From an uncultured Selenomonas sp. (lineage in GTDB: Bacteria > Bacillota > Negativicutes > Selenomonadales > Selenomonadaceae): DNA of 64,000 nt. Where the stretch lies: positions 62,001-126,000 of the forward strand of contig CAMVGU010000003.1 in the NCBI GenBank assembly GCA_947167105.1, given 5' to 3'. Both the position numbers and the translations under genes were made by a program. A model generated the notes under the pieces. The model did no database searches. It worked only from the letters and a program-made list of their open reading frames with translations, and was not told the DNA's origin. This document shows positions 5,547 through 57,935 of the stretch, piece by piece (position 1 is the stretch's first letter; each line of letters opens with the position of its first letter).

Positions 5547-5570
5547 TGAGGCTGCGTGTAATTTACGAAG

Positions 5571-5610
5571 AAAAAAGGCAGAGGTGCTTGGAAGCGCCCC
5601 TGCCTTTTTT
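5571..5610 (+). terminator. Rho-independent terminator after PBP gene
   Basis: AAAAAAGGCAG...CTGCCTTTTTT. Confidence 0.85.
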
Positions 5611-5775
5611 CATCACGTCGCACGTATGTTATTTGTTCTCTACTTGGTTTTTCAGTTAAGACTTAATATACAAAGAATATTTAAGTTATTTAAGGCTTTC
5701 AGACAGACAACTTAAAAACATAGTTGAAACTTGTTTACTTTTATGATAAATTTTAAGTTATGGAGGCTAAATAAA

Positions 5776-22795: not shown

Positions 22796-23122
22796 ATGAA
22801 GAAGCTGACAGCCATATTTACAGTTCTGCTACTGCTTGCTATGACAATTCCAGCGATGGCGGCATCTGCCATAAACCAGGATGGCTACTACAAAGGCATA
22901 AAACTATGCGGCAGGGTAAAGGTAGTGGAGCATTTTGCCGATATCAAGGTCAAGGTGGTGGATTCATTCCCTGACCTCAAGGTGAAGGTTGTTGACTCTT
23001 TCCCGGATGATATAGGCGAATGGAAGTTCGTGGAAAGCGGGGAAGACTTCACCGTCCAGTTTGTAGATAGCTTTCCGGATATCAAAATCAAGTATGTGAA
23101 TTCGTTTCCGGGAGTGGAATGA
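22796..23122 (+). CDS. Secreted small repeat protein resembling '7(1) septoil knot' domain proteins
   Basis: Signal peptide MKKLTAIFTVLLLLAMTIPAMAA; tandem (I/L)K(V/I)K(V/Y)V(D/N)SFPD units. Confidence 0.7.
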   Translation: MKKLTAIFTVLLLLAMTIPAMAASAINQDGYYKGIKLCGRVKVVEHFADIKVKVVDSFPDLKVKVVDSFPDDIGEWKFVESGEDFTVQFVDSFPDIKIKYVNSFPGVE

Positions 23123-24486: not shown

Positions 24487-24598
24487 CGCGTAACACCTTC
24501 CTTTCGAGTGTTTTGTTTGTGGTGAACATATTATACTCTGAAAGTCTGTAAGGATCAGTTACGCGATCTTTATTTGGTTAAAAGTTGTAAAGTGCTGT
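23122..24598 (-). mobile_element. IS element (IS4-like DDE family), about 1.48 kb
   Basis: Terminal inverted repeats ACAGCACTTTACAAC (23122-23136) / GTTGTAAAGTGCTGT (24584-24598) around one transposase ORF. Confidence 0.85.
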
Positions 24599-24605
24599 AG
24601 GTAAA

Positions 24606-24652
24606 AAATACACTGTGAATAAAATGCTCTTGCATTTTGTCACAGTGTATTT
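24606..24652 (+). terminator. Long hairpin, probable original terminator of the septoil-knot-like gene, now displaced by the IS
   Basis: AAATACACTGTGA (24606-24618) / TCACAGTGTATTT (24640-24652). Confidence 0.55.
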
Positions 24653-24675
24653 GCTGTGCAGGAAAATTATTTCCC

Positions 24676-24714
24676 TTGCCTATATGAGCATAAATATGTA
24701 TAATATGCTCATAT
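24676..24714 (+). promoter_or_regulatory. Promoter with overlapping palindromic operator upstream of the ECF S-component gene
   Basis: TTGCCT-17 nt-TATAAT (24699-24704); palindrome ATATGAGCATA (24682-24692) / TATGCTCATAT (24704-24714). Confidence 0.6.
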
Positions 24715-24749
24715 TTCGCATTTACATACTGGCTAAGGAGGTTATTGAC

Positions 24750-25316
24750 ATGAGCAGTTTGAGATTTGAAGCTTCACGCCTGTCTGTCAGGGAACTGACT
24801 TTGGCGGCGGCTATGACGGCGGTGGTATTCCTGCTGACCTTTGTGCCGAAGATTCCCATTCCCTTGGGGTACGCCCATTTGGGGGATGCAGGGATTTTCC
24901 TGATCATCTGTTTGGTGGGGAAGCGCGAGGGTATTTTGGCAGGTTGCCTTGGCTCCATGCTGGCTGATTTCCTGGGAGGTTTTGCCCTGTGGATGGGGCC
25001 GACGCTCCTCATCAAGTGGGCTATGGCCATGACTTTCGTCAATCTCAGCCGCGAAGGAGAACTGGGCAGCCTTCGCTCCCTGCGCACTTATGCAGCTCTT
25101 ATAGCTGCCTGCCTGGTCATGGCTGTAGCCTACGCCTTGTTCGGCGCCCTCCTTTACGACAGCCTGGCTGCAGGCCTGGCTTCCCTGCCGGGGCTTTTGC
25201 TTGAGGGGGCAGTGAATATACTGGCTTTCTGCGCTGCTGCCGCTCCTTTGAGCAGGCATATGGGGCATAGCAGGCATATGGGGCATAGCAGGCATATGGG
25301 GCATAGCAGGCAGTAA
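24750..25316 (+). CDS. ECF transporter S-component-like membrane protein with His/Met-rich repeat tail
   Basis: LRFEASRLSVRELTLAAAMTAVVFLLTFVPKIPIPLGYAHLGDAGIFL; AAGGAGG before ATG 24750; tail RHMGHSRHMGHSRHMGHSRQ. Confidence 0.75.
   Translation: MSSLRFEASRLSVRELTLAAAMTAVVFLLTFVPKIPIPLGYAHLGDAGIFLIICLVGKREGILAGCLGSMLADFLGGFALWMGPTLLIKWAMAMTFVNLSREGELGSLRSLRTYAALIAACLVMAVAYALFGALLYDSLAAGLASLPGLLLEGAVNILAFCAAAAPLSRHMGHSRHMGHSRHMGHSRQ
25251..25312 (+). repeat. 18-bp tandem repeat (3.4 copies) AGCAGGCATATGGGGCAT
   Basis: Exact copies at 25251, 25269, 25287 plus partial at 25305. Confidence 0.95.
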
Positions 25317-25486
25317 GGAGTGGAGAAAATTTTTCCGCAATGATGAGGAAATACCGGGGGAGCAGATGGCTTCTTCGGTATTTTTTTGTCATTATGTCGC
25401 CTATTGCGGAAGGATTTCCTAAATAGGGGGAATTGCGGAAGAAAAAATGCCTATGAGTGTCATGTTTTTGCTTTTATAATGAGAAC

Positions 25487-26445
25487 ACACCACTTTACAA
25501 CTTTTCTGATTGAAAAAATTATCGCGCAAATCACTCCCTTAGTGTAAGATGAAATTACCACACCCCATCTACGCAAAGGAGGTTCGCGCGATGAAGTCAT
25601 TATACAGCAATCCCAACCTGATGTCTATGGTATCTGCCTTGAATGAGCATTTTGCGGCATACTTCCATGAAGCTACCCGCCCCATGCGTAGCCTGCTTTG
25701 TGGCATCGTACTTGCCATGCTTGCATTTGAATCCATCCCCTCGATACGCTGGATGCATAGAAGGTTCCATCTTTCGCTGATGCCAGGTTCTCTGAACAGC
25801 TACTATCGAGCCTTAAAGACATGCACGGTGGATGCTCCGGCGGCATACATTATCTTCATGTGCCTGTCGTCTACTGTCTGTGGACAAAGGAGAAGACCAA
25901 GCTTGAAATGGCTGCCGATGCCATAGATGCAGTAATGAGGGATCTTGAAGGCAAGCACATAGTCGTGCTCTGTGATAGCTGGTACCCGAAAAAGAAATTC
26001 ATCAGCAAAATCCTTTCGCATGAGAACGCCGACATAATATGCAACATACGGGTTGATACGGCCATTTACGATTTGCCACCAGCACGCACAGGGAAAAGAG
26101 GACGCCCCTGCAAGAGAGGTGCCCAGCTATCGCTGGATGACTTCGCTTGCACATACTCCAGGGGCAAGTTCAAGGTGGGGCATCGCTGTGTCAAGACCAA
26201 AATTTTTGGTGACATCACAGTACATGCATATGTGACAGTTTCTGAATCTGGTGCCAGGCGCTTATTTATCTGCACGGCAGAGCCATCCGAAATAAGGTTT
26301 GGGTGTGCCTCACATACTGATGACCCAAATACCACTGTCGGAGATACGGACAGGGAATTTCTGCCTTTGAGCCTTTATAGCATTCGTTGGAACATAGAGG
26401 TGGGTTACTACGAACACAAGACATTCTGGTCAGTAGCCCACACCA
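25487..26445 (+). pseudogene. Decayed IS4-like transposase related to 23122-24598 (internal deletion/frameshift, 3' truncated)
   Basis: CACTTTACAACTTTT end shared with intact IS; MKSLYSNPNLMSMVSALNEHFAAYFHEATRPMRSLL... then in another frame KTKLEMAADAIDAVMRDLEGKHIVVLCDSWYPKKKF...IRWNIEVGYYEHKTFW. Confidence 0.85.
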
Positions 26446-26484
26446 AAGGCGGCTTCTCTAGAAGTTGTCAACAAAACTGTCCTG

Positions 26485-26865
26485 CTAATCCAGGTCGGGC
26501 ATATCGGATAAGTTGACCTTATCATAGGCTCCATTTTTCTTGTCTTCTGGATGCGGCTCCAGACCGATGATTGTTATATCTTGCCGGTCTGGCCCATATA
26601 CCCAGTACATACGCATAGCGCGACTGGTGTTGTTCTCCAGATAAGACTGCCAAACTTTGATACCATATCGTTTGGTTAGCGGCTCGATATCGTGGGTATG
26701 CAGACTGGGATAAGATGGGTCTTGTGACAAAAGCCGCATGGCCTTTCCCCATTTGTTGTAGAGTGACAGTTCTTGTTTGGATATGGTGCCGGCGGTGTTC
26801 TTTTGAGACAGGTCTGTCCATAGCGCCAACATTTCCGGGATTCCCATACGAATAGCAAAACTCAT
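26485..26865 (-). CDS. Putative toxin-like protein of a TA-like pair
   Basis: 126 aa; starts 2 nt after the 81-aa upstream gene; two-gene organisation typical of TA modules. Confidence 0.5.
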   Translation of the reverse strand: MSFAIRMGIPEMLALWTDLSQKNTAGTISKQELSLYNKWGKAMRLLSQDPSYPSLHTHDIEPLTKRYGIKVWQSYLENNTSRAMRMYWVYGPDRQDITIIGLEPHPEDKKNGAYDKVNLSDMPDLD

Positions 26866-26867
26866 GG

Positions 26868-27113
26868 TTAGAACCCCGTTAAATCGATTGGTGCAGAAAC
26901 ATTGCCAGCTTTGTAGTTGCGGATGGATTCATCAATCATGGCAAGGGATTTTTTAGAGATTTCCTTGGGGACTACCAGTTCACGCGGTTCAAGGACAATG
27001 CAGCCGTTCTCATATTCCTTTACCTGATAATATGCATATTTGGCTCCGCGGAGTGTTAAGCGGTGCTTGGCATCAAGATGAGCAGTATAGTCTACTACTA
27101 CAGATGCATCCAT
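26868..27113 (-). CDS. Putative antitoxin-like (AbrB/MazE-like?) protein
   Basis: MDASVVVDYTAHLDAKHRLTLRGAKYAYYQVKEYENGCIVLEPRELVVP; start ATG 27113 after GGAGG. Confidence 0.5.
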   Translation of the reverse strand: MDASVVVDYTAHLDAKHRLTLRGAKYAYYQVKEYENGCIVLEPRELVVPKEISKKSLAMIDESIRNYKAGNVSAPIDLTGF

Positions 27114-27291
27114 GACGATTCCTCCTTTGATGTGGGATTTCCCACTTGCTTTTTCTTTAATTCTAAGACAAACGGAGTCTTTTGGCAAGAAAAATTTGCT
27201 GCTTATAGCTTATAGCGTTGACTTAATCCAGATCCTGAGTGATAAATGGTGGTAAAAACTGGAAGTAGTGAATTGGCATGACTGACAAAGA

Positions 27292-34846: not shown

Positions 34847-36220
34847 ATGAAGCAGACAGTACCAGTCAGACAGGGACAGAATTACGAGATAGAAATAAAC
34901 ACCCTGGGCAGCAGCGGCGAGGGCGTGGGACGTTATGAGGGCTTCACGGTCTTTGTGCCCGGCCTGCTGCCGGGGGAGAAAGCCCTTGTGAGAATCACAG
35001 AGGTCAAGAAGACCTATGCCATAGGCAGTATCGCGGAACTCTTGCGCCGGAGCCGTGACCGTGCAGAGCCTCTGTGTCCTGTTTATGAGCAGTGCGGCGG
35101 CTGCCAGCTGCAGCATCTGAGCTATGAAGCCCAGCTAACGGCCAAGCGCCAGCAGGTCATTGACTGCGTGACCCGCATCGGCCATCAGCCGGGGCTTTAT
35201 GTGGAGGAAACCCTGGGGGCGGAGAACCCCTGGAACTACCGCAACAAGATGCAATTTCCCCTTGGCAGGCGCAAGGGCAAGGCTCTGGTGGGCTGTTTTG
35301 CTAAGGGCAGCCATGATATCATCGACACCAGGGACTGCCATATTCAGCATGAATCCCTGAGCCAGCTTGCCAATGCCATGCGTGAAGCCGTGGATAAACT
35401 GCAACTGCCGGTCTACGATGAGGACAAGCACACAGGCGTCATGCGTCATATCGTGGGCCGTGTCGGCGAGCAGGGCGAGCTGATGGCGGTCATTGTCACT
35501 GCGACACGCAAACTGCCCAGGGAAAAAGAACTGGTGAATTTCCTGCGCAGGCAACTGCCTGGGCTGGTCAGCGTCCACCAGAACATACAGACCTATCACA
35601 ATAATGTCATCATGGGCAGGGAGACCCGCCTCCTGTGGGGCCAGCCCACCATCAGGGATCGACTGGGGTTCCTGCACTTCCACATCTCCCCCCGCTCCTT
35701 CTTTCAGGTCAATACCCGCCAGGCGGAACTGCTCTACGGCAAGGCGCTGGAATTCGCCCAGCTTACGGGCCGGGAGATTGTCATTGACGCCTACTGCGGC
35801 ACAGGCACCATCACCCTGTTCCTGGCCCGGAAGGCCCGCCAGGTCTATGGTATTGAGATTGTGAAGCCCGCCATCAAGGATGCCATCAAGAACGCCCGTG
35901 ACAACAATGTAAAGAATGCCGAATTCATAGTAGGCGACGCCACGGAAGTCATGCCCCGTCTCTATCGCGAAGGCATCCGGCCTGACGTAGTAGTGGCAGA
36001 CCCCCCCAGGGCAGGCTGCACCGAAACAGTCCTCAAAACCTTCGCCCAAATGCAGCCCCGCCGCATCGTCTATGTCTCCTGCAACCCGGCCACCCTGGCC
36101 AGGGATATGGAGATACTGGCAGGTCTGGGCTACAAGGCAGAGCAGGTTCAGCCCGTGGATATGTTTCCGCAGACGGCGCATGTGGAATGTGTAGTGTCGA
36201 TACGTCGAGTAGAGTCTTGA
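34847..36220 (+). CDS. rlmD: 23S rRNA (uracil-C5)-methyltransferase RlmD/RumA family
   Basis: TRAM domain N-term, CPVYEQCGGCQLQHLSYEAQ, YCGTGTITLFLA, VVVADPPRAGC, YVSCNPATLARD. Confidence 0.93.
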   Translation: MKQTVPVRQGQNYEIEINTLGSSGEGVGRYEGFTVFVPGLLPGEKALVRITEVKKTYAIGSIAELLRRSRDRAEPLCPVYEQCGGCQLQHLSYEAQLTAKRQQVIDCVTRIGHQPGLYVEETLGAENPWNYRNKMQFPLGRRKGKALVGCFAKGSHDIIDTRDCHIQHESLSQLANAMREAVDKLQLPVYDEDKHTGVMRHIVGRVGEQGELMAVIVTATRKLPREKELVNFLRRQLPGLVSVHQNIQTYHNNVIMGRETRLLWGQPTIRDRLGFLHFHISPRSFFQVNTRQAELLYGKALEFAQLTGREIVIDAYCGTGTITLFLARKARQVYGIEIVKPAIKDAIKNARDNNVKNAEFIVGDATEVMPRLYREGIRPDVVVADPPRAGCTETVLKTFAQMQPRRIVYVSCNPATLARDMEILAGLGYKAEQVQPVDMFPQTAHVECVVSIRRVES

Positions 36221-36367: not shown

Positions 36368-36694
36368 GGAAATGAAATATGAGGGTATAAAAGTTTACAT
36401 GAGTATGAATAGAGCAGGCAGGAACGATATGAAGATGGAAGCTCAAATTGAGGATAAGCGTACGGACCAAAGGTATGGTGCTAACATCAATTTTGTTTTA
36501 TAGGGAGGTATAGACTATGGCAACTTTGGCCACAGGCATGATGTTTTTACACATGACGCCATGCTGCCATATTATGGTGAGTCCTGTATTATCAAGGTTT
36601 AAGCAGTCAGAACACAGTACGTAGGCGTAATATGACGGATTTGAAATTCACTTTTAATATACAGTGAATCTCGTCAGGCAAGGAGGACTGGATT

Positions 36695-39600
36695 ATGATA
36701 CAGCATATTTCTGTAAGAGTACCGTGGCATGACAACGGCTGGGATGGTACTATCTGCCAGGATCCGGCGGGCAACTCTGCTTGCCTGAAACTGAAGAACA
36801 TTGCTGAGAACCGCAACGACCGGATGGAAATAGCCATTCGTGGGGAACGCATGGAAGATCATATGGAAAAAGTATGCTGTATCGCCGAAGGCGGTGCCTT
36901 TATGTCGCCTGAGGATTTGACACGCAAGGCTGAGCATCCGTATGTCAGTACAAAAACACCTTCACATAGCCACTTGTTGCCAACGTCAGTAGTCTATCCA
37001 GCTTATAGCTTTCCTACAAGGCCGTTTGCCTGGTTGATGCGCGATTGGATTAAGGAAAGGGCTGCTACTTATGGCGTAGGTTATGATGATGACAGAGAAC
37101 CAGAGATGCGCTTTACGTCTAATTGGGTGCAGGACGGAGACAATCATAAGGCCATCTTTGATTATTTCTACGGCGATGTCTACCCAGAAAAGTCGCTCTG
37201 CCTTGCTTATGCCAAGCAGGTGCCATTTACGGATGACCACAGGCGTGTAATCTTGGGCATGGGGCATGTGCGTAAAATCATACCAGCAAAGGAATATGAC
37301 CATACTGATGCCGGACAACTGCGACCACTGATTTGGGAGACAATGGTCTGTCACACCATACGGTCAGAGCATAAAGATGGTTTTCTGATACCGTATCAGG
37401 AGATGCAGGCCTATGCAGACGAACACCCTGAATTCGATATGGAATCCATTATTGTCTATGCCCCTGCTTATGCCATGCCGGAATTCTCCTATGCCACGGA
37501 GCATGTCAGCTACGATGCAGTGATTGACGTAATTCTGTCATGCATCAAATCCTTTACCATCATCAATGAATGTTTGGATGAGGACTATAGCAATGTGCTA
37601 TCCTGGTTAAACAGCCAGTTGGCTGAGGTCTGGGAGGAACGTGGTGCCTTCCCAGGTCTGGGGCCGATGCTTTGTGCATTCGGCGTGAAGCAGGGTGTCA
37701 TGATGGCAAGGGAAATGCAGGATCGGGGCTTTGCAGAGGCGGATGTATGCGAGTGGGTGGATCATGTCATGGCTACACCGCAGAAATATCTGTCCAGCGG
37801 AGTAGCCAAGGGAGTAACGCCTATCCTGCGCAAGACATGGAAATCCCTGGGGCAGGAACGGCGGACTTTGTTCACACTGCTGGCAAGATTTACGTTGAGC
37901 CTGTCGCAGGCAGAGATGTTGTTTGAAGAAAATGAACGTCGCAAGAATGGGCTGGAGTGCTCAGATGCTGAAATAATTGCAAATCCATATCTGCTTTATG
38001 AGGAAACCCGCTTGAAACTGGAGGGCAGCTATATAGATATCTCCACGGTCGATAAAGCTGTCTTCCCTGTATCCTCTATCGCTGTGCTGTATCCGCTGGC
38101 AGAGCCTACAAAGCTTGCTTCTGATAATGATGAACGTCGTGTCCGTGCCCTGGCCATAGCTGTACTCGAAGCTGCGGCCCAAAGAGGACATACCTTCCTG
38201 CCTTGCAATATGCTGGTCAATTGGATGCAGAAGATCAATCTTGACCCGCCTTGTAAAGTGACGTCGGATATGGTAGCTGCTCTGGAAAAGTATATGGAGC
38301 AGCTAATCATGAAGCGTGAGATGAAGGATGGTACGGAGTACTACAAGCTCGTGCGCCTCCACAAGTTTGATCAGATTATAGAAAAACGTGTCAGTAAACG
38401 ACTCGAGGCTGAAAAAATAGAAGTCCTGGCTGATTGGCGGTCTATGCTGGATGCTAAATTCAATTCGGAAGGTACGGAGAAGCTATCAATCGATGAAGAG
38501 CGAGCGCGGCAGGAAAAGGCTGCCGTGCTGAATGTACTGGCTGAATCAAGGCTTTCAGTGCTGGTCGGCAACGCAGGTACAGGAAAGACAACGGTACTGT
38601 CCGTACTTTGTAGCGAAGACTCCATCCGTACAGGTGGAGTTCTGCTTCTTGCACCAACGGGGAAGGCTACCGTGCGTCTTAAAGAGAGCGTGGGCAGTGA
38701 TGATGACCATTTCGTATCATTGAATGTAGCACAGTATCTGGTTCGCAATAGTAGATTTGATTGGAATGACCTGAGATACAAACTGGCCAGGTTTACACCA
38801 TCGGACGTGCCAGAAACTGTTATCATAGATGAAGCGTCTATGCTGACAGAGGAAATGTTTGGTGCAATCCTTGATGCAGTGGGCAGAAAAGCCAAACGCA
38901 TAATCTTTGTGGGAGATCCCAACCAATTACCGCCGATAGGCGCGGGCAAACCATTTGTTGATTTGGTGAATTTACTGAAGGAGAAACTGCAGCCGGGTAA
39001 ATTCCCACGCACCTGCGAATGCTACGGCGAGCTGATTGTAAATCGCCGTCAACAGCAGGGCGAACGGTTGGATGTGGCTCTGTCAAAGTATTTTACACGG
39101 ACAGAAGATGTGCCAGACGACGATGATGTTCTGGCCGCTATTCAGAAAGGCAAGAGCAAGAATATTAGCATTGAGCGCTGGAATACCAGGGAAGAACTGG
39201 AAAGCAAGCTGCTAGATACTGTATCAGCAGTATTGGGCCTGCAAGGGCCAGATGATGTAGACGGTTTCAACCGCACGTTCGGTGCAGATGTTGGAGAATA
39301 TGTGACCTTCTTCAATGCTGATGCCGCTACTCATGTCGATGATTGGGAAGTGCTGGCACCTGTTCGCAATATGCCTCATGGTGTACAAAACATCAATAAT
39401 TTGTTCCATCAGAAGTATCGCCAAAGACAAATGGATATGGCCAAAGCACCATGGCGGAGCATACCCAAGGCTATGGGCGATGAAGGCATAGTGTATGGCG
39501 ATAAGGTCATCAATGTCCAGAATAAGTCCAGGAAGTACTGGGATGTCGCAGATAAGGCCAATCATGATGGGTATGTGGCAAACGGCGAGCTGGGACTGGT

Positions 39601-40384
39601 TTGCGGCCTGTATGCCAGAAAAAAGCAGCCGAAGTATATGCATGTAGTATTTTCTTCGCAAAATGGACGTACATATTCTTTTGATGGAAGGGATTTTAAC
39701 GATGAGGACGGTACACATACGTTGGAACTGGCTTATGCCTTGACGATACATAAGGCCCAGGGCAGCCAGTTTAAGACCGTCATTCTCGTTTTGCCGGCAA
39801 CCTGTCGGATAGCGTCACGGGAGCTCATGTATACGGCAATGACGCGACAGATTGAGCGTATCATCATTCTTTATCAGGGTGAGCCATACCAGCTTTTGCA
39901 GTATGCGGATGAGGCTAATTCGGATATTGCCCGTCGCTTTACGGACCTTTTCGCTGATGTTTTCCCTGACAATGACTATAAGCCGCAGATTGTGGAGGTA
40001 AAGGGGACGTTCTTTGATGAGCGCTTGATTCACAAGACAGTGCGGGGAGAGCTGGTGCGTTCCAAGTCTGAAGTTATCATTGCGAATGCTCTTTTCTATA
40101 ACGATATTGATTATGAATATGAGCCGGTGTTGGAGGTGGAGGGCCATGTAAAGCGTCCAGATTTTAAAATTTTGGATGGCGACACTGGAAAGGTTTGGTA
40201 TTGGGAGCATTGTGGCATGATGACCGACCCGCGGTATAGGAAACACTGGGATGACAAAAAGAAGTTTTATGAAAAGAATGGCATAGTGGAAGGCAAGAAC
40301 CTGATTGTGACCATGGATGATGAGCAGGGCGGTTTGGATGCCAGTGAAATCGATGAACTGATTAAAGAAACATTTGACCTTTGA
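36695..40384 (+). CDS. RecD-like SF1 helicase with C-terminal PD-(D/E)XK-like nuclease domain
   Basis: Walker A VLVGNAGTGKTTVLSVL, Walker B ETVIIDEASMLT, FVGDPNQLPPIG, YALTIHKAQGSQFKTVIL; C-term RSKSEVIIANALFYNDIDYEYEP...RPDFKI...VWYWEHCGM. Confidence 0.88.
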   Translation: MIQHISVRVPWHDNGWDGTICQDPAGNSACLKLKNIAENRNDRMEIAIRGERMEDHMEKVCCIAEGGAFMSPEDLTRKAEHPYVSTKTPSHSHLLPTSVVYPAYSFPTRPFAWLMRDWIKERAATYGVGYDDDREPEMRFTSNWVQDGDNHKAIFDYFYGDVYPEKSLCLAYAKQVPFTDDHRRVILGMGHVRKIIPAKEYDHTDAGQLRPLIWETMVCHTIRSEHKDGFLIPYQEMQAYADEHPEFDMESIIVYAPAYAMPEFSYATEHVSYDAVIDVILSCIKSFTIINECLDEDYSNVLSWLNSQLAEVWEERGAFPGLGPMLCAFGVKQGVMMAREMQDRGFAEADVCEWVDHVMATPQKYLSSGVAKGVTPILRKTWKSLGQERRTLFTLLARFTLSLSQAEMLFEENERRKNGLECSDAEIIANPYLLYEETRLKLEGSYIDISTVDKAVFPVSSIAVLYPLAEPTKLASDNDERRVRALAIAVLEAAAQRGHTFLPCNMLVNWMQKINLDPPCKVTSDMVAALEKYMEQLIMKREMKDGTEYYKLVRLHKFDQIIEKRVSKRLEAEKIEVLADWRSMLDAKFNSEGTEKLSIDEERARQEKAAVLNVLAESRLSVLVGNAGTGKTTVLSVLCSEDSIRTGGVLLLAPTGKATVRLKESVGSDDDHFVSLNVAQYLVRNSRFDWNDLRYKLARFTPSDVPETVIIDEASMLTEEMFGAILDAVGRKAKRIIFVGDPNQLPPIGAGKPFVDLVNLLKEKLQPGKFPRTCECYGELIVNRRQQQGERLDVALSKYFTRTEDVPDDDDVLAAIQKGKSKNISIERWNTREELESKLLDTVSAVLGLQGPDDVDGFNRTFGADVGEYVTFFNADAATHVDDWEVLAPVRNMPHGVQNINNLFHQKYRQRQMDMAKAPWRSIPKAMGDEGIVYGDKVINVQNKSRKYWDVADKANHDGYVANGELGLVCGLYARKKQPKYMHVVFSSQNGRTYSFDGRDFNDEDGTHTLELAYALTIHKAQGSQFKTVILVLPATCRIASRELMYTAMTRQIERIIILYQGEPYQLLQYADEANSDIARRFTDLFADVFPDNDYKPQIVEVKGTFFDERLIHKTVRGELVRSKSEVIIANALFYNDIDYEYEPVLEVEGHVKRPDFKILDGDTGKVWYWEHCGMMTDPRYRKHWDDKKKFYEKNGIVEGKNLIVTMDDEQGGLDASEIDELIKETFDL

Positions 40385-40426
40385 GCATGATTGCAGCCCA
40401 ATAGTGTGGAATGGGGGAATATAGCG

Positions 40427-43400
40427 GTGGATACAACTGCAATTACAAGTAAAATGAACGAATATATGTTTCGGTTAAATGGACAGCTAGGGCAGTGGCT
40501 TTCAGAGAAATTGCCTCAAATCACGGATAAATGGTGGCGTGAGCTTGTTTTTAGCAACCTGACATATTTGCAGCGTGATGCCGCTGAGAAAGGACATGTC
40601 AAGGAAATCAGTGGTTTGGATTTGGCTGCCAATTTGCGTATCATAGACAGGTGCTGGTTTGTACTTAGGAGTCGCTTCTTCTTGAATGATAAAGATAGGA
40701 AAAGCATCAGGAAAATGCAAGCCATCAGGAACGATTGGGCTCATATCGCTCCCGGTAAAATAACAAAAGAGAGAGTCACCACAAATGTACAGGTGATTAT
40801 TGACTTGATGCAGGCTTTTGGGGCCTCGATGAAAGACACCGGGGATATGGAACGCTTTTCTCTGGATGTAGAAGATGATAAGAATATCAGCACAGAGCTA
40901 ACTAAAACTACTGCCAAGCCTGCAGAGATTGCTGATAAGTTGTCACTGGAAACTGATGATAAAAGTCAAATACAGTTGGGCAGCATTGTCTGTCTGACCA
41001 GTAATGAGAGCAAGTCGGGGGCTGTCATTGGCATCAATGGCAATAGGTATACGGTATTCATCGATAACATGCCTAGTGTGTTTTACGCGGAACAGATCAA
41101 GTTGAAGCCGGTAGTGAATGAAATTGAGCGTTATGCCTCTTTGTCACAGGTGAGATCAGCTTTGACTGCGTATCAAATCAGTAATCCCGGTTCAGGCAGT
41201 CTATACTCGCTGAATGCAGCACGAATTGATTTTGTGCCGTTCCAGTTCCGTCCAGCCCTTAAAATGATAAAGGCCTATAGTCCACGAATTTTGGTCGCAG
41301 ATGATGTAGGTGTCGGTAAGACAATTGAGGCAGGCCTTATCTTGAAGGAGTTGGAAGCTAGGCATGGTGAGGTATCAGTTCTCGTTATTTGTCCTCGTCC
41401 TTTGGTGGCAGAGCGGAAATGGCAGTTAGAGATGAAGCGTTTTGATGAGAACTTTACCCAGCTCGATGGCAAAGAGCTGGCAGAAGCTATTTCCGAAACT
41501 GACAGGGATGGTGAATGGCCAGAGCGTCATTCTAAGACTGTGATACCATATTCTCTCTTTAGTGAAGATTCTATATTGGGGCGGCAGTCCAGTACCAACC
41601 GGAGGCACAGGAACATGGGCTTGTCGGAGCTAGACCCGTTGCCTCATTTCGACCTTGTGATTGTAGATGAAGCTCATAACATCCGTAATCCGAATACCTG
41701 GGCCTACAGAGGCGTAGAGTTGTTCTGCAGGAGTGCGGATGCGGTTATCTTTTTGACAGCTACGCCACTTCAGAACAGTAACGACGACCTTTATACGTTG
41801 TTGAATCTTTTACGTCCTGATATGGTCATAGATAAAGATACATTCAAGACTATGTCTGCCCCTAACCAATATGTGAATAACCTTCTGCGAATATTACGCA
41901 GGCAAGAAAATGGCTGGCAAGCAGCAGGCAAGGCCGAAATTGAACATATACTCAGCACAGATTGGGGGCGGAATGTAATTCAGCATAGTCCGGATTTTGA
42001 GTATGTCTTCAATTTCATGGAGCAAAACAATCCTTCCAGGGAAGATAAGATGGATATTATTTCTCGTGTAGAGGGACTGCATTCCTTCCATACAATTATC
42101 AATCGTACACGTCGTAAAGATATTGAGGATTTCTGCGTACGTAAAACTCAGACATTGGATGTGCCTTTCAGTGAAACGCAGCGTGAACTCTATGATTCGT
42201 TGCTGACTTTCGAGAAAAGAGCATTGTCAAGGCTACATGGCAGTCGTGGTGCGCGTTTTATGATGTGTACTATTATGCGTCAGGCTGCTAGTTGTATTTA
42301 TGGTCTGGCTCCCTTCATGGAAGACTTAGTACAAAAGCGCCTTAAGCAGATACAAGACGATGGTGAGTTATATGAAGAAGAATTCACTCTGACCAATGAT
42401 GAAGAGAAATCCTTATGGAAACTGGCAGATGAAATTAAGTCCCTGTCCCGCAACCTGCCTGATGACGATCCAAAGTTCGATAAAATGCTGGAGGCAATCC
42501 AGCAGAAACAGAATGAGGAAAATAATCGTGTGATTATTTTCAGCTCTTTCCGTCACACGTTGCGATATGTGCGCGAAAAGCTGATGCGGGCAGGACTGCG
42601 CATTGGTCAGGTAGATGGATCTGTTCCCGATGAAGAGCGTTACGCTCTGCGCAAGCGCTTCCTGCTGGACAGATCCGATAGTCATGCTATTGATGTCCTG
42701 TTGTTTAGTGAAGTCGGCTGTGAAGGCTTGGACTATCAGTTCTGTGACACAATGATTAACTATGATTTACCGTGGAACCCTATGCGTATTGAGCAGAGAA
42801 TCGGACGTATCGACAGACGTGGTCAAAAGAGTGATACTGTCAGGATTTACAATATGATTACCCAGGACACTATAGATGCCGTTATTTATGAAAGATGCCT
42901 TTTGAAGATCGGTGTCTTTGAGGCCAGTATCGGTGACTGTTCGGAAATCTTGGGAGATATCAGTGATAAGATTTTGCAAATCATGTTTAACCCGGAACTT
43001 TCTGAACAAGAACGTCAGGCAAAGATTGAGCAGATGGCGGATAATAAGGTAATGAAAGTACAGGAGTTGCAACGCTTGGAGCATGAAGAGAAGTCGTTGT
43101 ATGGTTTCGATCTATCTTCATATATGCTTGATAAGGATGTCCAAGGCGCAGAGAATCCTTGGATAAGTCCGACAAGCTTCCAGGAATTGTTGACTGCCTA
43201 TTTGAATGATGTTTTGGGTGAAGGAGAATACATCCTTGGTAAGCAGGAAAAGAAAACCTTACGACTATCAGCTGATAAACGTCAAAAATTATTGGCCGAT
43301 TTGATAGAGCAGCCTACCAGTAGCAATAATTATGCCTTTAAGCTCTGGAAATCATATTTGAAATCCAATTCTCCGAATCTGTCAATAACCTTTGACAGCC

Positions 43401-44005
43401 AGACAGCAAAGGATAATCGTGAGATTACTTTCCTGACCCAGATGCACCCGCTGATTGTACAGGCTGCAAGACATGAGTCCAGTGAGCAACCTTGCAAGCT
43501 TGCCATCGAGGTTAGTGATTCTGAGATTAAGCCGGGGGAGTATGAGTTTTTGGTTTATGCCTGGAAATATATTGGGCTGCGTCCTGACATCAAACTGGTG
43601 GCAGTAAGCAATGAGCCGAGCGTTGAGCAGAACGTACTGTCTTATTTGCAGTATGCAGCTGAATATGAAGGTGATGGACTTAACCATGATGCTGGCTGGG
43701 ATAGTATGGACTCCCGTCACTATGAGCGTTGGCAGGAGGCTAAGCAGAAGTATACTGATGATGTTCATGCTGAATGTGAATATAGACAGGAGCAACTGCA
43801 GCACTCCTGGCATCAGCAGGAGACCATACTTAAGAATCAGATTAATGCAGCAGAGGATGAACGTATACGTCGTATGCGTTCATCACAGCTAGAAAATACA
43901 CGGCTGAAATACGAGAAGCAAGTCAAGAAGCTTGATGACATTACTGTGCAGGCTGATATACATACGAGGGTGCTTGTTAAAGGCTTGCTTAGGGTTGATG
44001 GATAA
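40427..44005 (+). CDS. Swt1-type HEPN domain fused to SNF2/RapA-like helicase-translocase
   Basis: N-term RKMQAIRNDWAH (HEPN Rx4-6H); DDVGVGKTIEAGLIL, DLVIVDEAHNIRN, FLTATPLQNS, IEQRIGRIDRRGQ. GTG start at 40427 (or TTG 40391). Confidence 0.88.
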   Translation: MDTTAITSKMNEYMFRLNGQLGQWLSEKLPQITDKWWRELVFSNLTYLQRDAAEKGHVKEISGLDLAANLRIIDRCWFVLRSRFFLNDKDRKSIRKMQAIRNDWAHIAPGKITKERVTTNVQVIIDLMQAFGASMKDTGDMERFSLDVEDDKNISTELTKTTAKPAEIADKLSLETDDKSQIQLGSIVCLTSNESKSGAVIGINGNRYTVFIDNMPSVFYAEQIKLKPVVNEIERYASLSQVRSALTAYQISNPGSGSLYSLNAARIDFVPFQFRPALKMIKAYSPRILVADDVGVGKTIEAGLILKELEARHGEVSVLVICPRPLVAERKWQLEMKRFDENFTQLDGKELAEAISETDRDGEWPERHSKTVIPYSLFSEDSILGRQSSTNRRHRNMGLSELDPLPHFDLVIVDEAHNIRNPNTWAYRGVELFCRSADAVIFLTATPLQNSNDDLYTLLNLLRPDMVIDKDTFKTMSAPNQYVNNLLRILRRQENGWQAAGKAEIEHILSTDWGRNVIQHSPDFEYVFNFMEQNNPSREDKMDIISRVEGLHSFHTIINRTRRKDIEDFCVRKTQTLDVPFSETQRELYDSLLTFEKRALSRLHGSRGARFMMCTIMRQAASCIYGLAPFMEDLVQKRLKQIQDDGELYEEEFTLTNDEEKSLWKLADEIKSLSRNLPDDDPKFDKMLEAIQQKQNEENNRVIIFSSFRHTLRYVREKLMRAGLRIGQVDGSVPDEERYALRKRFLLDRSDSHAIDVLLFSEVGCEGLDYQFCDTMINYDLPWNPMRIEQRIGRIDRRGQKSDTVRIYNMITQDTIDAVIYERCLLKIGVFEASIGDCSEILGDISDKILQIMFNPELSEQERQAKIEQMADNKVMKVQELQRLEHEEKSLYGFDLSSYMLDKDVQGAENPWISPTSFQELLTAYLNDVLGEGEYILGKQEKKTLRLSADKRQKLLADLIEQPTSSNNYAFKLWKSYLKSNSPNLSITFDSQTAKDNREITFLTQMHPLIVQAARHESSEQPCKLAIEVSDSEIKPGEYEFLVYAWKYIGLRPDIKLVAVSNEPSVEQNVLSYLQYAAEYEGDGLNHDAGWDSMDSRHYERWQEAKQKYTDDVHAECEYRQEQLQHSWHQQETILKNQINAAEDERIRRMRSSQLENTRLKYEKQVKKLDDITVQADIHTRVLVKGLLRVDG

Positions 44006-44032
44006 CAGGGATAAGAGATAGGCGGTACGGTG

Positions 44033-47000
44033 ATGGATAGCATAAGCGATATTTTCAATAAGTATGCAAACATTGAAGCAGGGGATTTAAGCAGCAATCA
44101 GAAACGACAGTTGTATGATCTGTTGGGGACAATGCAGCCTGAGGCATTGAAGACTTTGGATGAGCATCGAATGTATGTGCAGATTCTGCAAAAATTCAGG
44201 CAGTCCAGCATGGATGACATGCGCTTGAATGGCAAGAAATTTATCAAAACATTAGAATCATTGCTTTCTGTAGGTGAAGACGGTGTTTATTCCAATAATC
44301 AACGCTTCATTTATGAGTTAATTCAGAATGTCGATGACTGTGAATATGAAAATATGAGTGATGCCAGCCTGGAGATACAGTTCAAGTATACTAATGAGCC
44401 TGGCAAAGTTATCCTTACCTACAACGAGAAAGGCTTTACGCCAGGGAATGTGTTTGCCATTACTGGTATTGCGGAAGCCTCAAAAAACATTTCGGCTGAT
44501 AAGGTAGAAATAGGCGAGAAAGGCATAGGTTTCAAATCGGTTTTTGGCATAGCAGATAAAGTGCGCATTGAGAGTGGCATGTTCGCTTTTGAACTGCACA
44601 AAGATAATTTTACCGTACCAGTGCCATGTTACGATGGCTTTGAGCCTGTTCACGGTACCAGGATGACACTTTTTATGCCAGTGCTGAAATGTCGTGATCT
44701 ATATCGCAGCCTTGCCCAACAGTACATCAAGCCAGATGCTGCGCTAAACAGGAATCCTATCTTGTTCCTGAATAAGCTGACTCATTTGAAAATGTTTTTT
44801 GATGGCTTCCGTTATTTGGAATTCGATGTTCAGCGTGCTGAGCCAGAGATAAGAGGTAGCCTCCTATTTGAAGCAATGGTATCTGTTTCTGTAGATATGA
44901 AAGATACTCATAATGGTATTGACCGCTCTGAGAAAAACGAGATTATGTGCCATAGATATACCGAGCCCATCATTTATGGACGTAGGGAGTGTTTGGCTCG
45001 TTATGGCGATGATGCTCCATTCCAGGAAAGACGACACAATCTGATAATGGTATTTCCAGTTCTGGGCAAAGGGTTGGAGGAATACAATGGTGTAATGTAT
45101 TCTTTTCTCCCTACACAAGTTAAAGTCAATGCTCCTATTGTGATGCATGTTCCTTATAAACTTGATGGTTCACGTGAGTTCGTAGATCCGCAGGGTGAAA
45201 ATGATTGGTTTACATATACAAATTCCCGACTGGCTGATTTCTTGCATAAGGTTTACCTAGATTTTGCTCATGTCATAAAAGAAAATATAGTTTCATACAT
45301 CCCATCACATAATAAGTATTTCTTTATCCGTGATAATGAAAAAGTAACAGCACTCTGCACAGAAGAACTTCGTAGCACCAGCCTCTATAGAGATAAGATT
45401 TTCTACACGACAGACGGTACATTTGAATCGGCTGTCAATGTAGTGGCCTTTGCTAAAAATGAAGCAATTGCCGATCAGCAAGAGGTGTATAGCCTTTTGG
45501 GACATAAGTATAAGCTCTTTATACCACCTAGACCTATGGATATGAGCCAATATGGTGTTAAGGTCATAGAGAACGTCAGGAAACAACTTTTCAAAAGGGC
45601 AATGGAAGATGAATCAGTTACAGATGATATATTTTCTTGGTTGGAACAACCAGGGCAAGATACAAACTATGTAAAAATGCTGACTGAGGTAGAACCTGTA
45701 ATACTGAGTAAAAAACAAATCGCAGCTATTGCAAAGTATCCGTCAGTAATGCAGGGGCTCAGGCAACGTGCCCATGACGCTATTGCCTATGGACGATCCA
45801 TGGGTGTAACAATTAAGGATAAAGGTATGGTTCATCTGCCTGATACGGTAAAAGAGAGTATTGCAGATGCAGTAAATATGGCAGATTTGGATGGTGCCTA
45901 TAGTGCATATCTCAAGAAAATTGAATTGAATCTTTTTGGCTTAGAAGGTGTGAAAGGTGAATTCGCTCTGGCTGCAAGCAATGGCATAGTAGTTTCTGTT
46001 GAAACAGCTTTGAGTTCCTTTGCGGCTTTTTCCCGCAGATTTGATTCGAGGAAAACATTTACAGCTTCACTGGAAATACGCCAGGCAACAGAAAGGCTGA
46101 ATGCCGTTGATAATCAGAATATGACGAAAGATGAGTATCTGAATTTGTTGCGTGGTGTTAGAAATAGTTTATGTAGTGCTTTTGGCGAAAGAATGTACAA
46201 TAGCTACATACGTATTATCAAAGAGGCGGGAGCAGATAAGAAGCGCTTTCTTAAGGAACTGCTGCAAAATGCTGATGATTGTATTTACCCGGATGGTGTA
46301 GTGCCGGAGTTCAAATTGGATGAAGAAGAATCTGTCCTTAAAATTTCATATAATGAGCAAGGATTTACCAGGGATAATGTACGTGCTATTACAGCAATAG
46401 GGGAATCTACCAAGAATTTACTTCTGTCAGGTGATAAGCGTTCTATAGGTGAAAAGGGAGTTGGATTCAAATCTGTCTTTGGTGTTGCAGAATCAGTAGA
46501 TATTCATAGTAATGGTTTCGACTTTAGGCTAACAGAAAATAAACCGACAGTTCCAGACCGTTGCGATTCAATGGAGGTGTCGGAAGGAACTGTCATGATT
46601 TTTAGAATGAAGCCAAATGCAAGACCAAAACTCTCAAATGCTAGGATACTGCAGCTTTGCATGTGCTTGCGTCAATTAAAAAGCTTGTATATCTATGCTC
46701 ATCATGTGACAATTCTTGACAAAGGAAATAGTAGAATCGTGACGATTGATGGTATTCAGCATAAATATAAAAGATTTGAATATGTTTTTGCTGTCAAGGA
46801 TAAAACTGCAATCAAAGAGCGTAACAAGGGTGGCAGGCAAATCAGTGCAGAGCAGAAGATTGTTTGCTATATTCCAGAGAAAATAAAAGACCAGCCTTGT
46901 TATGTATACTCTGGCCTTCCTGTAGAGGGCGTTACCAGTTTGGTGCCGTTGATTATAGATGCACCGTTTGAGCTCACTACTTCCAGAGAAGAAATTTTGC

Positions 47001-48787
47001 AAAACAGCTGGAATGATGTTGTTAAAGAGCATATGTATAACGCCATACTGTCTTTGATGAAATCTGAAATGGCTTCCGGCATGGAAATTATGCGTTACAT
47101 TTATTTCCGTGCACAGGGCGGTCAGGTTGTCACATGGGGCAATTTCAATGTACCATATCTGAATAATGCTGAGTTACCGGAAATGTTGAAGAAACAGGTC
47201 ATATTGCCTGTGCTAGGTATGAATAATCATGTCTCTGCGATGCAAGGGTGTAAGGTTATACCTGATTTTATAGCCAGGATAAACCGAGAAACAAATATAA
47301 CAGGCCATTTTAAGGGCAATATACTGGACACTGTAGGTAAAACTCAGTATGTGCCGTTACTGGAGAGCATTGGTTGTGTAAAGGTATCTGGCCAAGAAAT
47401 ACTGTCATGTTTGAAGAAAATTGTTGAAACACATATACAGGATACTGTGTTTAGGGATGGACTTTATGCTTATTTATCCAACAACCAAGGTAATATCAGT
47501 TTCGATGGCATTGGTGAGGGAATACTGGAACTACCAGTATTCCCTGTGAAAGTCCGTGGAGGTACTGATTATATTCAGTACGCTGATAATTTGTATACTG
47601 CAAAAGGAAAAATCTCCAATGATGAGTATTGGATATTGAATGAAGAAATTATGCCTGTGACATTGGCAGATAAAATTCTGGATAAGTATGGCCGAGTAAA
47701 TGCTTTGACGCAGGAAGTCTTTGATTCAAGATACCAAAAAAATCTTGAAGAATTGATACAAGGGCATAATGACGACAAGGATGTCGCTATACATTTGCTA
47801 CAGGAATATGAAGATAATCATAGTGCTTTGGTTAAGTGCAGAAATGCTCTGCGAGGTTTGAGAAATCAAATACCGATGAAGATGGAGGATGGTTCTTATA
47901 AAAGAGGATATAAGTTCTTGAATCCTACAGAGCAGGTATTTGCTGGGAAACTCATGCATGGTCTTATTGTTGATAGGCGTTTTGCTAATTTGGCTGGTTT
48001 TCTAGAATGTGGCGATGTTCTGAAAATCCATTATAATGAGATGGACAATATTACGTATTTGGAAGATGAGGATATAGAGGACTTGCATTGTGGACAGTAT
48101 GATGTTGGTGGTGGCTTCGAGTACTTCTATGAAATAATTAGGAATGTAGTCAGCCAGGGATTAGTTTCTGATGAGCAAATTGAAAAATATAACCTGAATT
48201 TTGGTATGCCAATCGAAACAGACCTAGATACGAATGAGCCCTTTCCTGCTCTAAGAGTGAAAAATGCAGAGAAGTTAAAAAGTCATATCCAAAAATTGTG
48301 GGAAAACCCAAATCCTTATGTCGAGAAGAGGTATATCCAATGGCTTCCTAGCCATGCTTTGGAAAAGAGAAATTACACAACAGGTATGTATAAAAGTCAT
48401 TCCGGTGTGGATAAATCTTTTTGTCAAATGTGCAAAAAGAAATACAACAACAAGTATATTGAGCTGAATAATATCGAAAAACTTCCAGTATATGCGTGGA
48501 GCCAGATGTATTTGAATCTTTGCCTAACTTGTAGCAAAGACTATATCGAGCTACGTAATAACGATGCGTTATGGGGGCAGTTTATAGCTGGAATCATGAA
48601 TGTTAATCCTATGAGTGCTGATTGTTTTGATATACGTATCGGTGATAGTACAATTACTTTCACAGCAACTCACTTGGCGGAGGTGCAGGAAATACTGAAG
48701 CAAGAGGGTTGGGGCAAGAAAGCACCTAAACGTAAACCAAAGTTGGGTAATTCAAGTGATGATGAATTGGTCAGTAATAAAGAATAA
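44033..48787 (+). CDS. 1585-aa protein with two sacsin/NOV-type GHKL (HSP90-like) ATPase modules and C-terminal Cys4 motif
   Basis: Module 1 FIYELIQNVDDCEY...IGEKGIGFKSVFGIAD; module 2 FLKELLQNADDCIY...IGEKGVGFKSVFGVAE; C-term FCQMCKKKY...LCLTCSKDYIEL. Confidence 0.88.
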   Translation: MDSISDIFNKYANIEAGDLSSNQKRQLYDLLGTMQPEALKTLDEHRMYVQILQKFRQSSMDDMRLNGKKFIKTLESLLSVGEDGVYSNNQRFIYELIQNVDDCEYENMSDASLEIQFKYTNEPGKVILTYNEKGFTPGNVFAITGIAEASKNISADKVEIGEKGIGFKSVFGIADKVRIESGMFAFELHKDNFTVPVPCYDGFEPVHGTRMTLFMPVLKCRDLYRSLAQQYIKPDAALNRNPILFLNKLTHLKMFFDGFRYLEFDVQRAEPEIRGSLLFEAMVSVSVDMKDTHNGIDRSEKNEIMCHRYTEPIIYGRRECLARYGDDAPFQERRHNLIMVFPVLGKGLEEYNGVMYSFLPTQVKVNAPIVMHVPYKLDGSREFVDPQGENDWFTYTNSRLADFLHKVYLDFAHVIKENIVSYIPSHNKYFFIRDNEKVTALCTEELRSTSLYRDKIFYTTDGTFESAVNVVAFAKNEAIADQQEVYSLLGHKYKLFIPPRPMDMSQYGVKVIENVRKQLFKRAMEDESVTDDIFSWLEQPGQDTNYVKMLTEVEPVILSKKQIAAIAKYPSVMQGLRQRAHDAIAYGRSMGVTIKDKGMVHLPDTVKESIADAVNMADLDGAYSAYLKKIELNLFGLEGVKGEFALAASNGIVVSVETALSSFAAFSRRFDSRKTFTASLEIRQATERLNAVDNQNMTKDEYLNLLRGVRNSLCSAFGERMYNSYIRIIKEAGADKKRFLKELLQNADDCIYPDGVVPEFKLDEEESVLKISYNEQGFTRDNVRAITAIGESTKNLLLSGDKRSIGEKGVGFKSVFGVAESVDIHSNGFDFRLTENKPTVPDRCDSMEVSEGTVMIFRMKPNARPKLSNARILQLCMCLRQLKSLYIYAHHVTILDKGNSRIVTIDGIQHKYKRFEYVFAVKDKTAIKERNKGGRQISAEQKIVCYIPEKIKDQPCYVYSGLPVEGVTSLVPLIIDAPFELTTSREEILQNSWNDVVKEHMYNAILSLMKSEMASGMEIMRYIYFRAQGGQVVTWGNFNVPYLNNAELPEMLKKQVILPVLGMNNHVSAMQGCKVIPDFIARINRETNITGHFKGNILDTVGKTQYVPLLESIGCVKVSGQEILSCLKKIVETHIQDTVFRDGLYAYLSNNQGNISFDGIGEGILELPVFPVKVRGGTDYIQYADNLYTAKGKISNDEYWILNEEIMPVTLADKILDKYGRVNALTQEVFDSRYQKNLEELIQGHNDDKDVAIHLLQEYEDNHSALVKCRNALRGLRNQIPMKMEDGSYKRGYKFLNPTEQVFAGKLMHGLIVDRRFANLAGFLECGDVLKIHYNEMDNITYLEDEDIEDLHCGQYDVGGGFEYFYEIIRNVVSQGLVSDEQIEKYNLNFGMPIETDLDTNEPFPALRVKNAEKLKSHIQKLWENPNPYVEKRYIQWLPSHALEKRNYTTGMYKSHSGVDKSFCQMCKKKYNNKYIELNNIEKLPVYAWSQMYLNLCLTCSKDYIELRNNDALWGQFIAGIMNVNPMSADCFDIRIGDSTITFTATHLAEVQEILKQEGWGKKAPKRKPKLGNSSDDELVSNKE

Positions 48788-49103: not shown

Positions 49104-49616
49104 TCACTGTGCGCGTTTGTAATGCCCGCTTTTCCCGCCGCTTTTTTCCTCCAGGTGGATGTCTGTGATCTCCATGCCCTTGTCCAGGGCTTTGCACATG
49201 TCATAGATGGTGAGCAGGGCAGTGCTGACGGCGGTGAGGGCTTCCATTTCTACTCCGGTTTTGCCAGTTATCCTGGCAGTGGCGGCTGCTTCTACGGCGC
49301 AGTCTTCCGGCAGCAGGGTGAATTCCACGCTGACGCCGGTGATGGGCAGGGGGTGGCAGAGGGGGATGAGGTCGCTGGTTTTTTTGGCTCCCATGATGCC
49401 CGCCAGCCTGGCCACTCCCAGCACATCACCCTTTGCGGCGGTGCCCCGGACTATTGTCTCGTAAACCTGGGGGCTGACCTTGATGCGGCCCCTGGCTGTG
49501 GCAATCCGCAGGCTGTCTGCTTTGGAGCTGACATCCACCATATGGGCCTGTCCCTCGCTATCGAAATGGTTGAGGGCAGGCTTTTTTTCTGTCAGCGTCC
49601 CATGAGAAAGAGACAT
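49104..49616 (-). CDS. moaC: Cyclic pyranopterin monophosphate synthase MoaC
   Basis: [68 protein letters not shown]. Confidence 0.96.
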
Positions 49617-57770: not shown

Positions 57771-57935
57771 TAGGGCGTGTTGATTAATTCGCTCAGCCCA
57801 TCTTCACGGGTCTTGACTGCCCCTGCTGCGTTGACAAATCCTCAGCATAGCCCCACTATGCCTGCGGTTTGTCGCCTTGCATGGACAGCCAATCCCCACA
57901 AATCTGGACTAAGCTCATTTAATCAACACGCCCTA
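57771..57935. mobile_element. MITE-like palindromic element, about 165 bp
   Basis: TAGGGCGTGTTGATTAA (57771-57787) / TTAATCAACACGCCCTA (57919-57935), 17-bp perfect TIR; imperfect stem continues inward; internal GACAAA...TTTGTC hairpin. Confidence 0.75.

Follow-up and report, generated by a model that had tools for sequence, protein, structure and literature searches.

Do three very long genes that stand side by side on a chromosome form one system, and if they do, which of them make up its core? The question is raised by an island in a 64,000-nucleotide stretch of an uncultured Selenomonas sp. (contig CAMVGU010000003.1, positions 62,001 to 126,000), here called the window. An earlier, sequence-only reading of this DNA described three long, co-directional and almost abutting genes, and the open reading frames (ORFs) are indeed found at the positions and with the sizes it gave (1229, ~1192 and 1585 amino acids, aa). 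They are called g1, g2 and g3 here.

36677..48787, plus strand: island unit (blastn against L004/L072 and L091)
36695..40384, plus strand: g1, ATG start, 1229 aa, RecD-like superfamily 1 (SF1) helicase-nuclease of the PDC-S68 family
40391..44005, plus strand: g2, TTG start, 1204 aa, HEPN-SNF2 translocase
44030..48787, plus strand: g3, GTG start, 1585 aa, double sacsin-type GHKL ATPase

Since the homologues of g2 begin at the GTG at 40427, its true start is probably there, giving 1192 aa. The left limit of the island, 36677-36679, is the point where identity with congener copies begins (blastn against L004/L072), and the right limit, 48787, is the g3 stop codon, where identity with a scar in another congener ends (blastn against L091). 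The conserved unit is the g2-g3 pair, with g1 a recurrent but optional third gene. On balance, the locus is best read as a horizontally mobile, modular, DNA-targeting module against mobile elements, in which g2-g3 would be the core, g1 a recruited effector and the HEPN RNase of g2 a backup.

The conserved pair and its optional third gene

Of 21 evaluable loci, among them the window, 20 pair g2 with a co-directional sacsin-GHKL gene; loci cut by contig ends (L004/L072, L120, L121, L133) are outside this count. The gene lies directly downstream of g2 in 19 loci and two genes upstream in L033, and the single exception, L131, carries a weaker GHKL-like ORF in the opposite orientation. The genes abut in nearly all loci, with a g2-g3 spacing of -29 to 40 bp where the two adjoin and were measured. 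Pairs without g1 occur in L101, L102, L103, L117, L119, L122, L128 and L129. This pairing, together with the g1-less pairs, makes the pair rather than the trio the conserved unit, and the view of the trio as the basic unit has to be given up. The pair is found in Bacillota, Succinivibrionaceae, three rhizobial plasmids, a plasmid of the archaeon Methanomethylovorans hollandica, the gut contig L119 and viral-collection contigs (L128, L129, L130 and L132, the last also with g1); several of the contigs with a viral or phage label may in fact be bacterial, and contigs of metagenome-assembled genomes may be mis-binned. The viral-collection contigs were matched by a g2 alignment query and by neither of the single-protein queries P0002 and P0003. 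A plasmid search with P0003 (g3) gave no match because g3 is too divergent, and rhizobial g3 as query recovered its relatives.

Despite this breadth g2 is rare and patchy, with matches in 4 of 392 Lachnospirales genomes and in 1 of 399 and 1 of 399 genomes of two phylum samples, each count including one match that is the centre genome itself. Of the four Lachnospirales matches, three fall in trio loci (G006, G007 and G010, where G007 was the search centre and its trio known beforehand), and one, in G352 (L117), belongs to a pair that lacks g1. No g2 was found in 398 genomes of the Bradyrhizobium order, in a search run without a positive control.

Full trios were found in nine of 68 loci gathered via g1, among which profile searches for the trio partners were made (L006, L007, L008, L015, L016, L023, L033, L036, L046). 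Such loci are uninformative on how often g2 has g1, and informative for g3; loci recovered through g2 do not share this bias. With L132 there are 10 trio loci besides the window and a 99%-identical congener copy, so the trio does co-occur elsewhere, and in three gene orders: g1-g2-g3 (window), g2-g3-g1 (most) and g3-g1-g2 (L033). In a FastTree phylogeny g1 is polyphyletic among trios, the window lying near L011, L012 and L017, with L036, L046 and L132 separate and a further group of L006, L007, L008, L015 and L023 with L033. This is consistent with g1 having joined the pair four or five separate times, a count that rests on a quick tree in which some supports are weak.

The same facts could describe two independent neighbouring defence units, a solo PDC-S68 (g1) and a two-gene SNF2-GHKL system. 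The polyphyly of g1, the g1-less pairs and the absence of close g2 or g3 relatives from most of the 68 g1 loci all fit that account. Yet most trios are tightly packed like operons, and g1 would have come to the same pair at least four or five times in three orders; furthermore, on an Ensifer plasmid a TM0106-family SF1 helicase-nuclease occupies the same place, 11 bp behind g3. Coincidental neighbourhood is thus rather unlikely. The Ensifer gene (L102, 20168-23557), a TM0106 RecB-like helicase-nuclease standing third behind SNF2 and GHKL genes, is a possible stand-in for g1.

Association with BREX and restriction systems

In several relatives the module stands at the end of a bacteriophage exclusion (BREX) operon. 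The trio starts 28-33 bp after a PglZ gene in L006, L007 and L046 (PF08665 matches inside the upstream ORF in all three), and brxA-brxB-brxC-pglX-pglZ lies upstream of the L007 trio (PADLOC; L107 and L007). The gut contigs L119 and L121 have PglZ 22 and 2 bp ahead of g2, which brings the loci with the pair directly behind pglZ to five. PglZ positions were located in G006, G007 and G014. BrxL (PF13337) is absent from the genomes G006, G007, G008 and G014, the PglZ linkage in G008 being cut by contig ends; it is present in G011, whose trio is unlinked to its PglZ. Because the pair follows pglZ directly and BrxL is missing from four such genomes, the module occupies the usual brxL place in the BREX-linked relatives. 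How BREX carries out its effector step has yet to be settled, and some systems can do without BrxL; natural BREX operons with a motor, a GHKL protein and a nuclease in its stead would let the role of BrxL be probed directly. Restriction-modification (R-M) genes keep the pair similar company: in L120 and L133 a type III methylase and a ResIII or type III restriction-like helicase are the two genes before g2, and in L132 a type I system (hsdM-S-R) lies ahead of g2. The sequence-only reading proposed a conflict or defence role, and this context of BREX and R-M linkage points the same way; the BREX link in BrxL's place, the exchanged GHKL subunit and the congener scar described below had no part in it. 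In the BREX-like operon of L119, a 536-aa gene between PglX and PglZ (4100-5710) has a weak pAgo match (48.5 bits).

The window copy stands alone: nothing BREX- or R-M-like was seen adjoining the island, and the genome has no PglZ (PF08665). BREX was accordingly rejected as a name for the window locus. Could the window then hold a BrxL-replacing BREX tail that has been orphaned, and either may no longer work or responds to BREX-like signals of other origin? The five loci behind pglZ and the four genomes without BrxL speak for such an origin. However, stand-alone copies exist in distant taxa and others are preceded by type I or III R-M systems, while the window ORFs are intact and their motifs conserved in a genome that lacks PglZ, which makes an orphaned tail improbable.

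Architecture of the three proteins

The g2 protein joins a HEPN domain to a SNF2 motor, as the sequence-only reading had it: Pfam finds HEPN_Swt1 (39.7 bits, cut-off 27.5), SNF2-rel_dom and Helicase_C.

40469..40816, plus strand: HEPN domain of g2, aa 27-142, Abi2/Swt1 type (Pfam)
40727-40744, plus strand: RNase motif R-N-x-W-A-H (RNDWAH) of g2, aa 113-118, an R-x4-6-H HEPN motif
41123..43090, plus strand: SNF2 motor of g2, aa ~245-900 (alignment columns)

The RNase motif is preserved in 8 of 9 full-length HEPN-bearing alignment rows, being lost in L015, and also in L128, L129, L130, L132 and L133. The motor motifs are invariant (Walker A DDVGVGKTIE, 304-313; DEAH, 426-429; QRIGRIDRRGQ, 802-812), and RapA is the nearest solved structure. 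A small gene ahead of rhizobial g2 was considered as a separated HEPN domain and rejected for want of a consistent HEPN motif; neither Pfam nor PADLOC matches it, and its sigma-factor-like look, judged by eye, is a guess.

The g3 protein has two HSP90-like GHKL modules, again in line with the sequence-only reading: there are two N-boxes (aa 96 and 743) and two stretches matching NCBIfam P_loop_sacsin (116.5 bits, cut-off 50), and the SACS/GHKL match scores 61.7 bits (cut-off 32.8).

44288..44929, plus strand: GHKL module 1 of g3, N-box ELIQNVDD at aa 96, GEKGIGFK at aa 162
46232..47212, plus strand: GHKL module 2 of g3, N-box ELLQNADD at aa 743, GEKGVGFK at aa 807
48422..48673, plus strand: zinc-ribbon-like C-terminal tail of g3, CQxC-x(n)-LCxxC...H, aa 1465-1548 (14-sequence alignment)

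The best PDB matches to a profile of the second half are sacsin (5v44-5v47), followed by HSP90 structures. The conserved columns of the tail (C1465, Q1466, C1468, C1498, C1501 and H1548 in the 14-sequence alignment) are spaced like an HNH treble clef and lack its catalytic histidines; the CxxC pairs also occur in L119, L122 and L128, and are missing from L129 and L132. Most g3 relatives have a single GHKL module and the same tail, and two modules are seen in L033 and L128.

The g1 protein matches PADLOC PDC-S68 over its full length (1498 bits, aa 2-1227 of 1229 against model positions 5-1219 of 1221).

36695..38149, plus strand: N-terminal domain of g1, aa 1-485 (AlphaFold2 model; mean predicted local distance difference test score, pLDDT, 93.3; predicted TM-score, pTM, 0.92)
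38462..39874, plus strand: RecD-like helicase core of g1, aa 590-1060 (Pfam AAA_30 and UvrD_C_2; RecD2/RecD PDB chains)
39878..40381, plus strand: predicted C-terminal PD-(D/E)xK-type nuclease domain of g1, aa 1062-1229 (AlphaFold2 pLDDT 88.1, Foldseek, conservation)

The Pfam and PDB matches bear out the proposal of a RecD-like SF1 helicase, and the helicase motifs are kept in a 48-sequence alignment (Walker A, 625-632; D712-E713; motif VI, 1046-1052). Neither RecD2 (197.6 bits, cut-off 500) nor exonuclease V RecD (160.7 bits, cut-off 310) was accepted as a name, both scores falling under the curated cut-offs. A nuclease-like tail had also been suggested, and its model does adopt a predicted restriction-endonuclease-like fold: Foldseek matches are R2 endonuclease, Bax1, TnsA, DrdV and Can2, with modest TM-scores (0.3-0.44) and a consistent class of matches. 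Residues E1126, D1156, E1171 and K1188 are conserved in the 48 sequences; the third nuclease motif reads E-H-C, and K1188 lies further on. The model of aa 1-485, with conserved W11, D13, C21, C30, C62, E215 and H220, has no Foldseek match at E<=0.001 in PDB or BFVD, and thus appears to be a confidently predicted fold without counterpart in these databases. No g1 was found in E. coli genomes at the DNA level. Another pairing of g1 with a GHKL protein occurs in L022 (13692-18629) and L020 (13683-18563), where g1 is directly followed by a different giant protein that matches the g3 profile; in L022 this protein combines a SACS GHKL domain and an SF1 helicase (AAA_11/AAA_12) in one chain.

Probable subunit exchange, and mobility

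The trees of g2 and g3 disagree. The window groups with L016/L023 for g2 (support 99/99) and with the two-module proteins of L033/L128 for g3 (support 100/100), and in the g2 tree L033/L128 make up a separate clade, apart from the window. Because these placements conflict and are both well supported, the phylogenies are most simply explained by an exchange of the GHKL subunit of the window operon; the long branches of L122, L119 and L132 blur the deep structure of the trees and leave the g2/g3 conflict unaffected. Such exchange between otherwise related operons would mean that parts of these systems are swapped piecewise.

A partial copy of the island with 99% identity is present in L004 (Selenomonas sp. 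RGIG9219), and L072 of the congener G004 has the same content. Identity to the L004/L072 copy begins at 36677, 18 bp ahead of the g1 start codon, and the upstream sequence differs there, with a tRNA-Val ~0.9 kb upstream of the copy in L004. In a third species (G003), L091 has ~520 bp of upstream sequence in common with L004, followed by a scar in which the first ~110 codons of g1 are joined to the last ~33 of g3, with 95% identity. As read from the alignment, this scar is an internal deletion of ~11.7 kb at another site, whose two sides share a few bases at the junction. The two genes flanking the island in the window are far apart or on different contigs in congeners where both were found. 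The different chromosomal contexts and the deletion scar support the earlier suggestion of horizontal acquisition. The island was also said to be AT-richer than its flanks, and its GC content of 0.435, against 0.575 and 0.589, agrees with this; it is the most AT-rich 12-kb stretch within the window, with values declining along the island (g1, 0.482; g2, 0.443; g3, 0.393).

An element of ~80-150 bp, starting near 'agggcgtgttgattaa' and bearing an inverted copy of its own end, lies in the window (57771-57925), L004 (361-444) and L091 (10117-10258). These places are unrelated, and those in L004 and L091 lie ahead of the island; it is possibly a small inverted-repeat element.

Relation to described systems

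PDC-S68 is a PADLOC single-gene candidate, and its listing does not include the pairing with g2-g3. The PDCs are computational 'guilt-by-embedding' candidates, mostly unvalidated (PMC12988326); neither PDC-S68 by name nor anti-phage activity for it was found in the open literature searched. Operons combining a GHKL ATPase, a superfamily 2 (SF2) helicase (including SWI2/SNF2) and a nuclease were noted in mobile settings and proposed to be restriction-like (Iyer 2008, PMC2292703). These share the theme of the present locus, but their GHKL proteins are MORC/paraMORC, whereas here the protein is sacsin-type by Pfam and NCBIfam, mostly with the CQxC...LCxxC tail, and the window locus showed no methylase; the word sacsin does not occur in that paper. 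HEPN-SWI2/SNF2 fusions with Abi2/Swt1 family HEPN, the same architecture as g2, were listed in 2013 (Anantharaman 2013, PMC3710099); in the parts of that source consulted only the fusion is listed, and neither a partner GHKL gene nor g1 is described.

Among named systems, the best PADLOC relative of g2 is DISARM DrmD (381 bits). DISARM was rejected as a name, g2 being far under the NCBIfam DrmD cut-off (283.4 bits against 610; g2 homologues, 300-314) and differing by its HEPN domain. No DISARM gene set was recognised beside g2: the island contains no other large ORF and the genes on either side look metabolic, the flanks not having been scanned with Drm models. Tiamat is a single-gene system, whereas here the GHKL protein is paired with SNF2; g3 matches the TmtA models only partially (240.6 bits in three separate stretches, the best at aa 710-835), and Tiamat was rejected for want of a full-length match. 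BREX (types 1, 5 and 6) is close on two counts: the PADLOC BrxHI/BrxHII model scores 195 bits against g2, and relatives carry the module at the 3' end of a brxA-brxB-brxC-pglX-pglZ operon. A BREX census of January 2026 reports the replacement of BrxL by helicases in types 5/6, and its text has no mention of GHKL, HSP90 or RecD (PMC12839542). The ARMADA paper has no HEPN, RecD, sacsin, GHKL or DrmD, and no NCBIfam model (June 2026) names g1, g2, g3 or the tested relatives beyond domain level.

The sequence-only reading could match the trio to no named system. This stands for the combination (NCBIfam, PADLOC, open literature) and falls for g1, already the candidate PDC-S68. The claim that the system is undescribed likewise stands for the combination in PADLOC and the open literature, a scope that leaves room for a description in subscription journals or most preprints, but not for the class, given the operons of 2008 and the fusions of 2013. 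The notable features are the BREX substitution and the subunit exchange.

Proposed mode of action

In the favoured scheme of a mobile module aimed at foreign DNA, whose complex formation, order of events, targets and anti-phage activity we infer, g2 would track along double-stranded DNA like the RapA, DrmD and BrxH motors, and g3 would be a clamp or switch gated by ATP, the part that GHKL ATPases play in MutL, HSP90 and MORC. The two would form a surveillance complex that, on non-self, stalled or end-containing DNA, loads g1, the recurrently recruited DNA-degrading effector, which would unwind the DNA through its RecD core and cut it through its PD-(D/E)xK domain. The HEPN RNase of g2 would serve as a backup, arresting growth when the DNA is not cleared. 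Relatives that have BREX would use the module in BrxL's place, with BREX methylation telling self from non-self, and in the window genome it would act alone.

Several points weigh against this scheme. With no PglZ in the window genome and no methylase seen beside the island, the self/non-self cue is left unexplained. Since the rhizobial, G352 and archaeal pairs have no HEPN domain and no g1, the core can dispense with both. In the GHKL G1-box, NEKGF/NEQGF stands in place of the usual DxGxG, which leaves ATP turnover uncertain. No assay of any module member was found in the literature searched, co-localisation with defence genes shows company and not function, and a sacsin-like chaperone or genome-maintenance role is possible. 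A horizontally spread stress or DNA-repair module without immune function (RapA-like remodeller, RecD-like exonuclease, sacsin-like chaperone) is nevertheless highly improbable: the solved structures closest to g2 and g3, RapA and sacsin, speak for it, but a patchy occurrence, presence on plasmids and viral-collection contigs and recurrent joining to BREX or R-M operons do not look like housekeeping repair.

Evenly balanced is the broader proposition that the SNF2-sacsinGHKL pair is an unnamed, rare and taxonomically broad immune core, working alone or as an interchangeable effector tail (for BrxL in BREX; on type I/III restriction), to which PDC-S68 or a different helicase-nuclease can be added as an exchangeable third member. 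If true, sacsin-type GHKL ATPases would gain a prokaryotic setting linked to defence, and the orphan candidate PDC-S68 would gain partners.

Flanks and other features of the window

The names of the two neighbours are carried over from the earlier reading and do not come from family models.

34847-36220: left neighbour, taken as rlmD
49104-49616, minus strand: right neighbour, taken as moaC

In two congeners (L092, G003:C44; L094, G002:C25) the 3' third of rlmD recurs as an incomplete duplicate (aa ~292-456, TAG stops) ~1 kb beyond the intact gene. Between rlmD and the partial copy lies a 197-aa gene with a PBECR4 domain, a phage-linked nuclease family, and the rlmD 3' end may be an integration spot. 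Elsewhere in the window, an AT-rich region (22888-27188) contains DDE_5 transposase pieces around a gene for an energy-coupling factor (ECF) riboflavin transporter S-component, and a low-GC pocket (5731-7227) encodes a protein with Schlafen AlbA_2 and RecG-like HATPase_c_4 domains.

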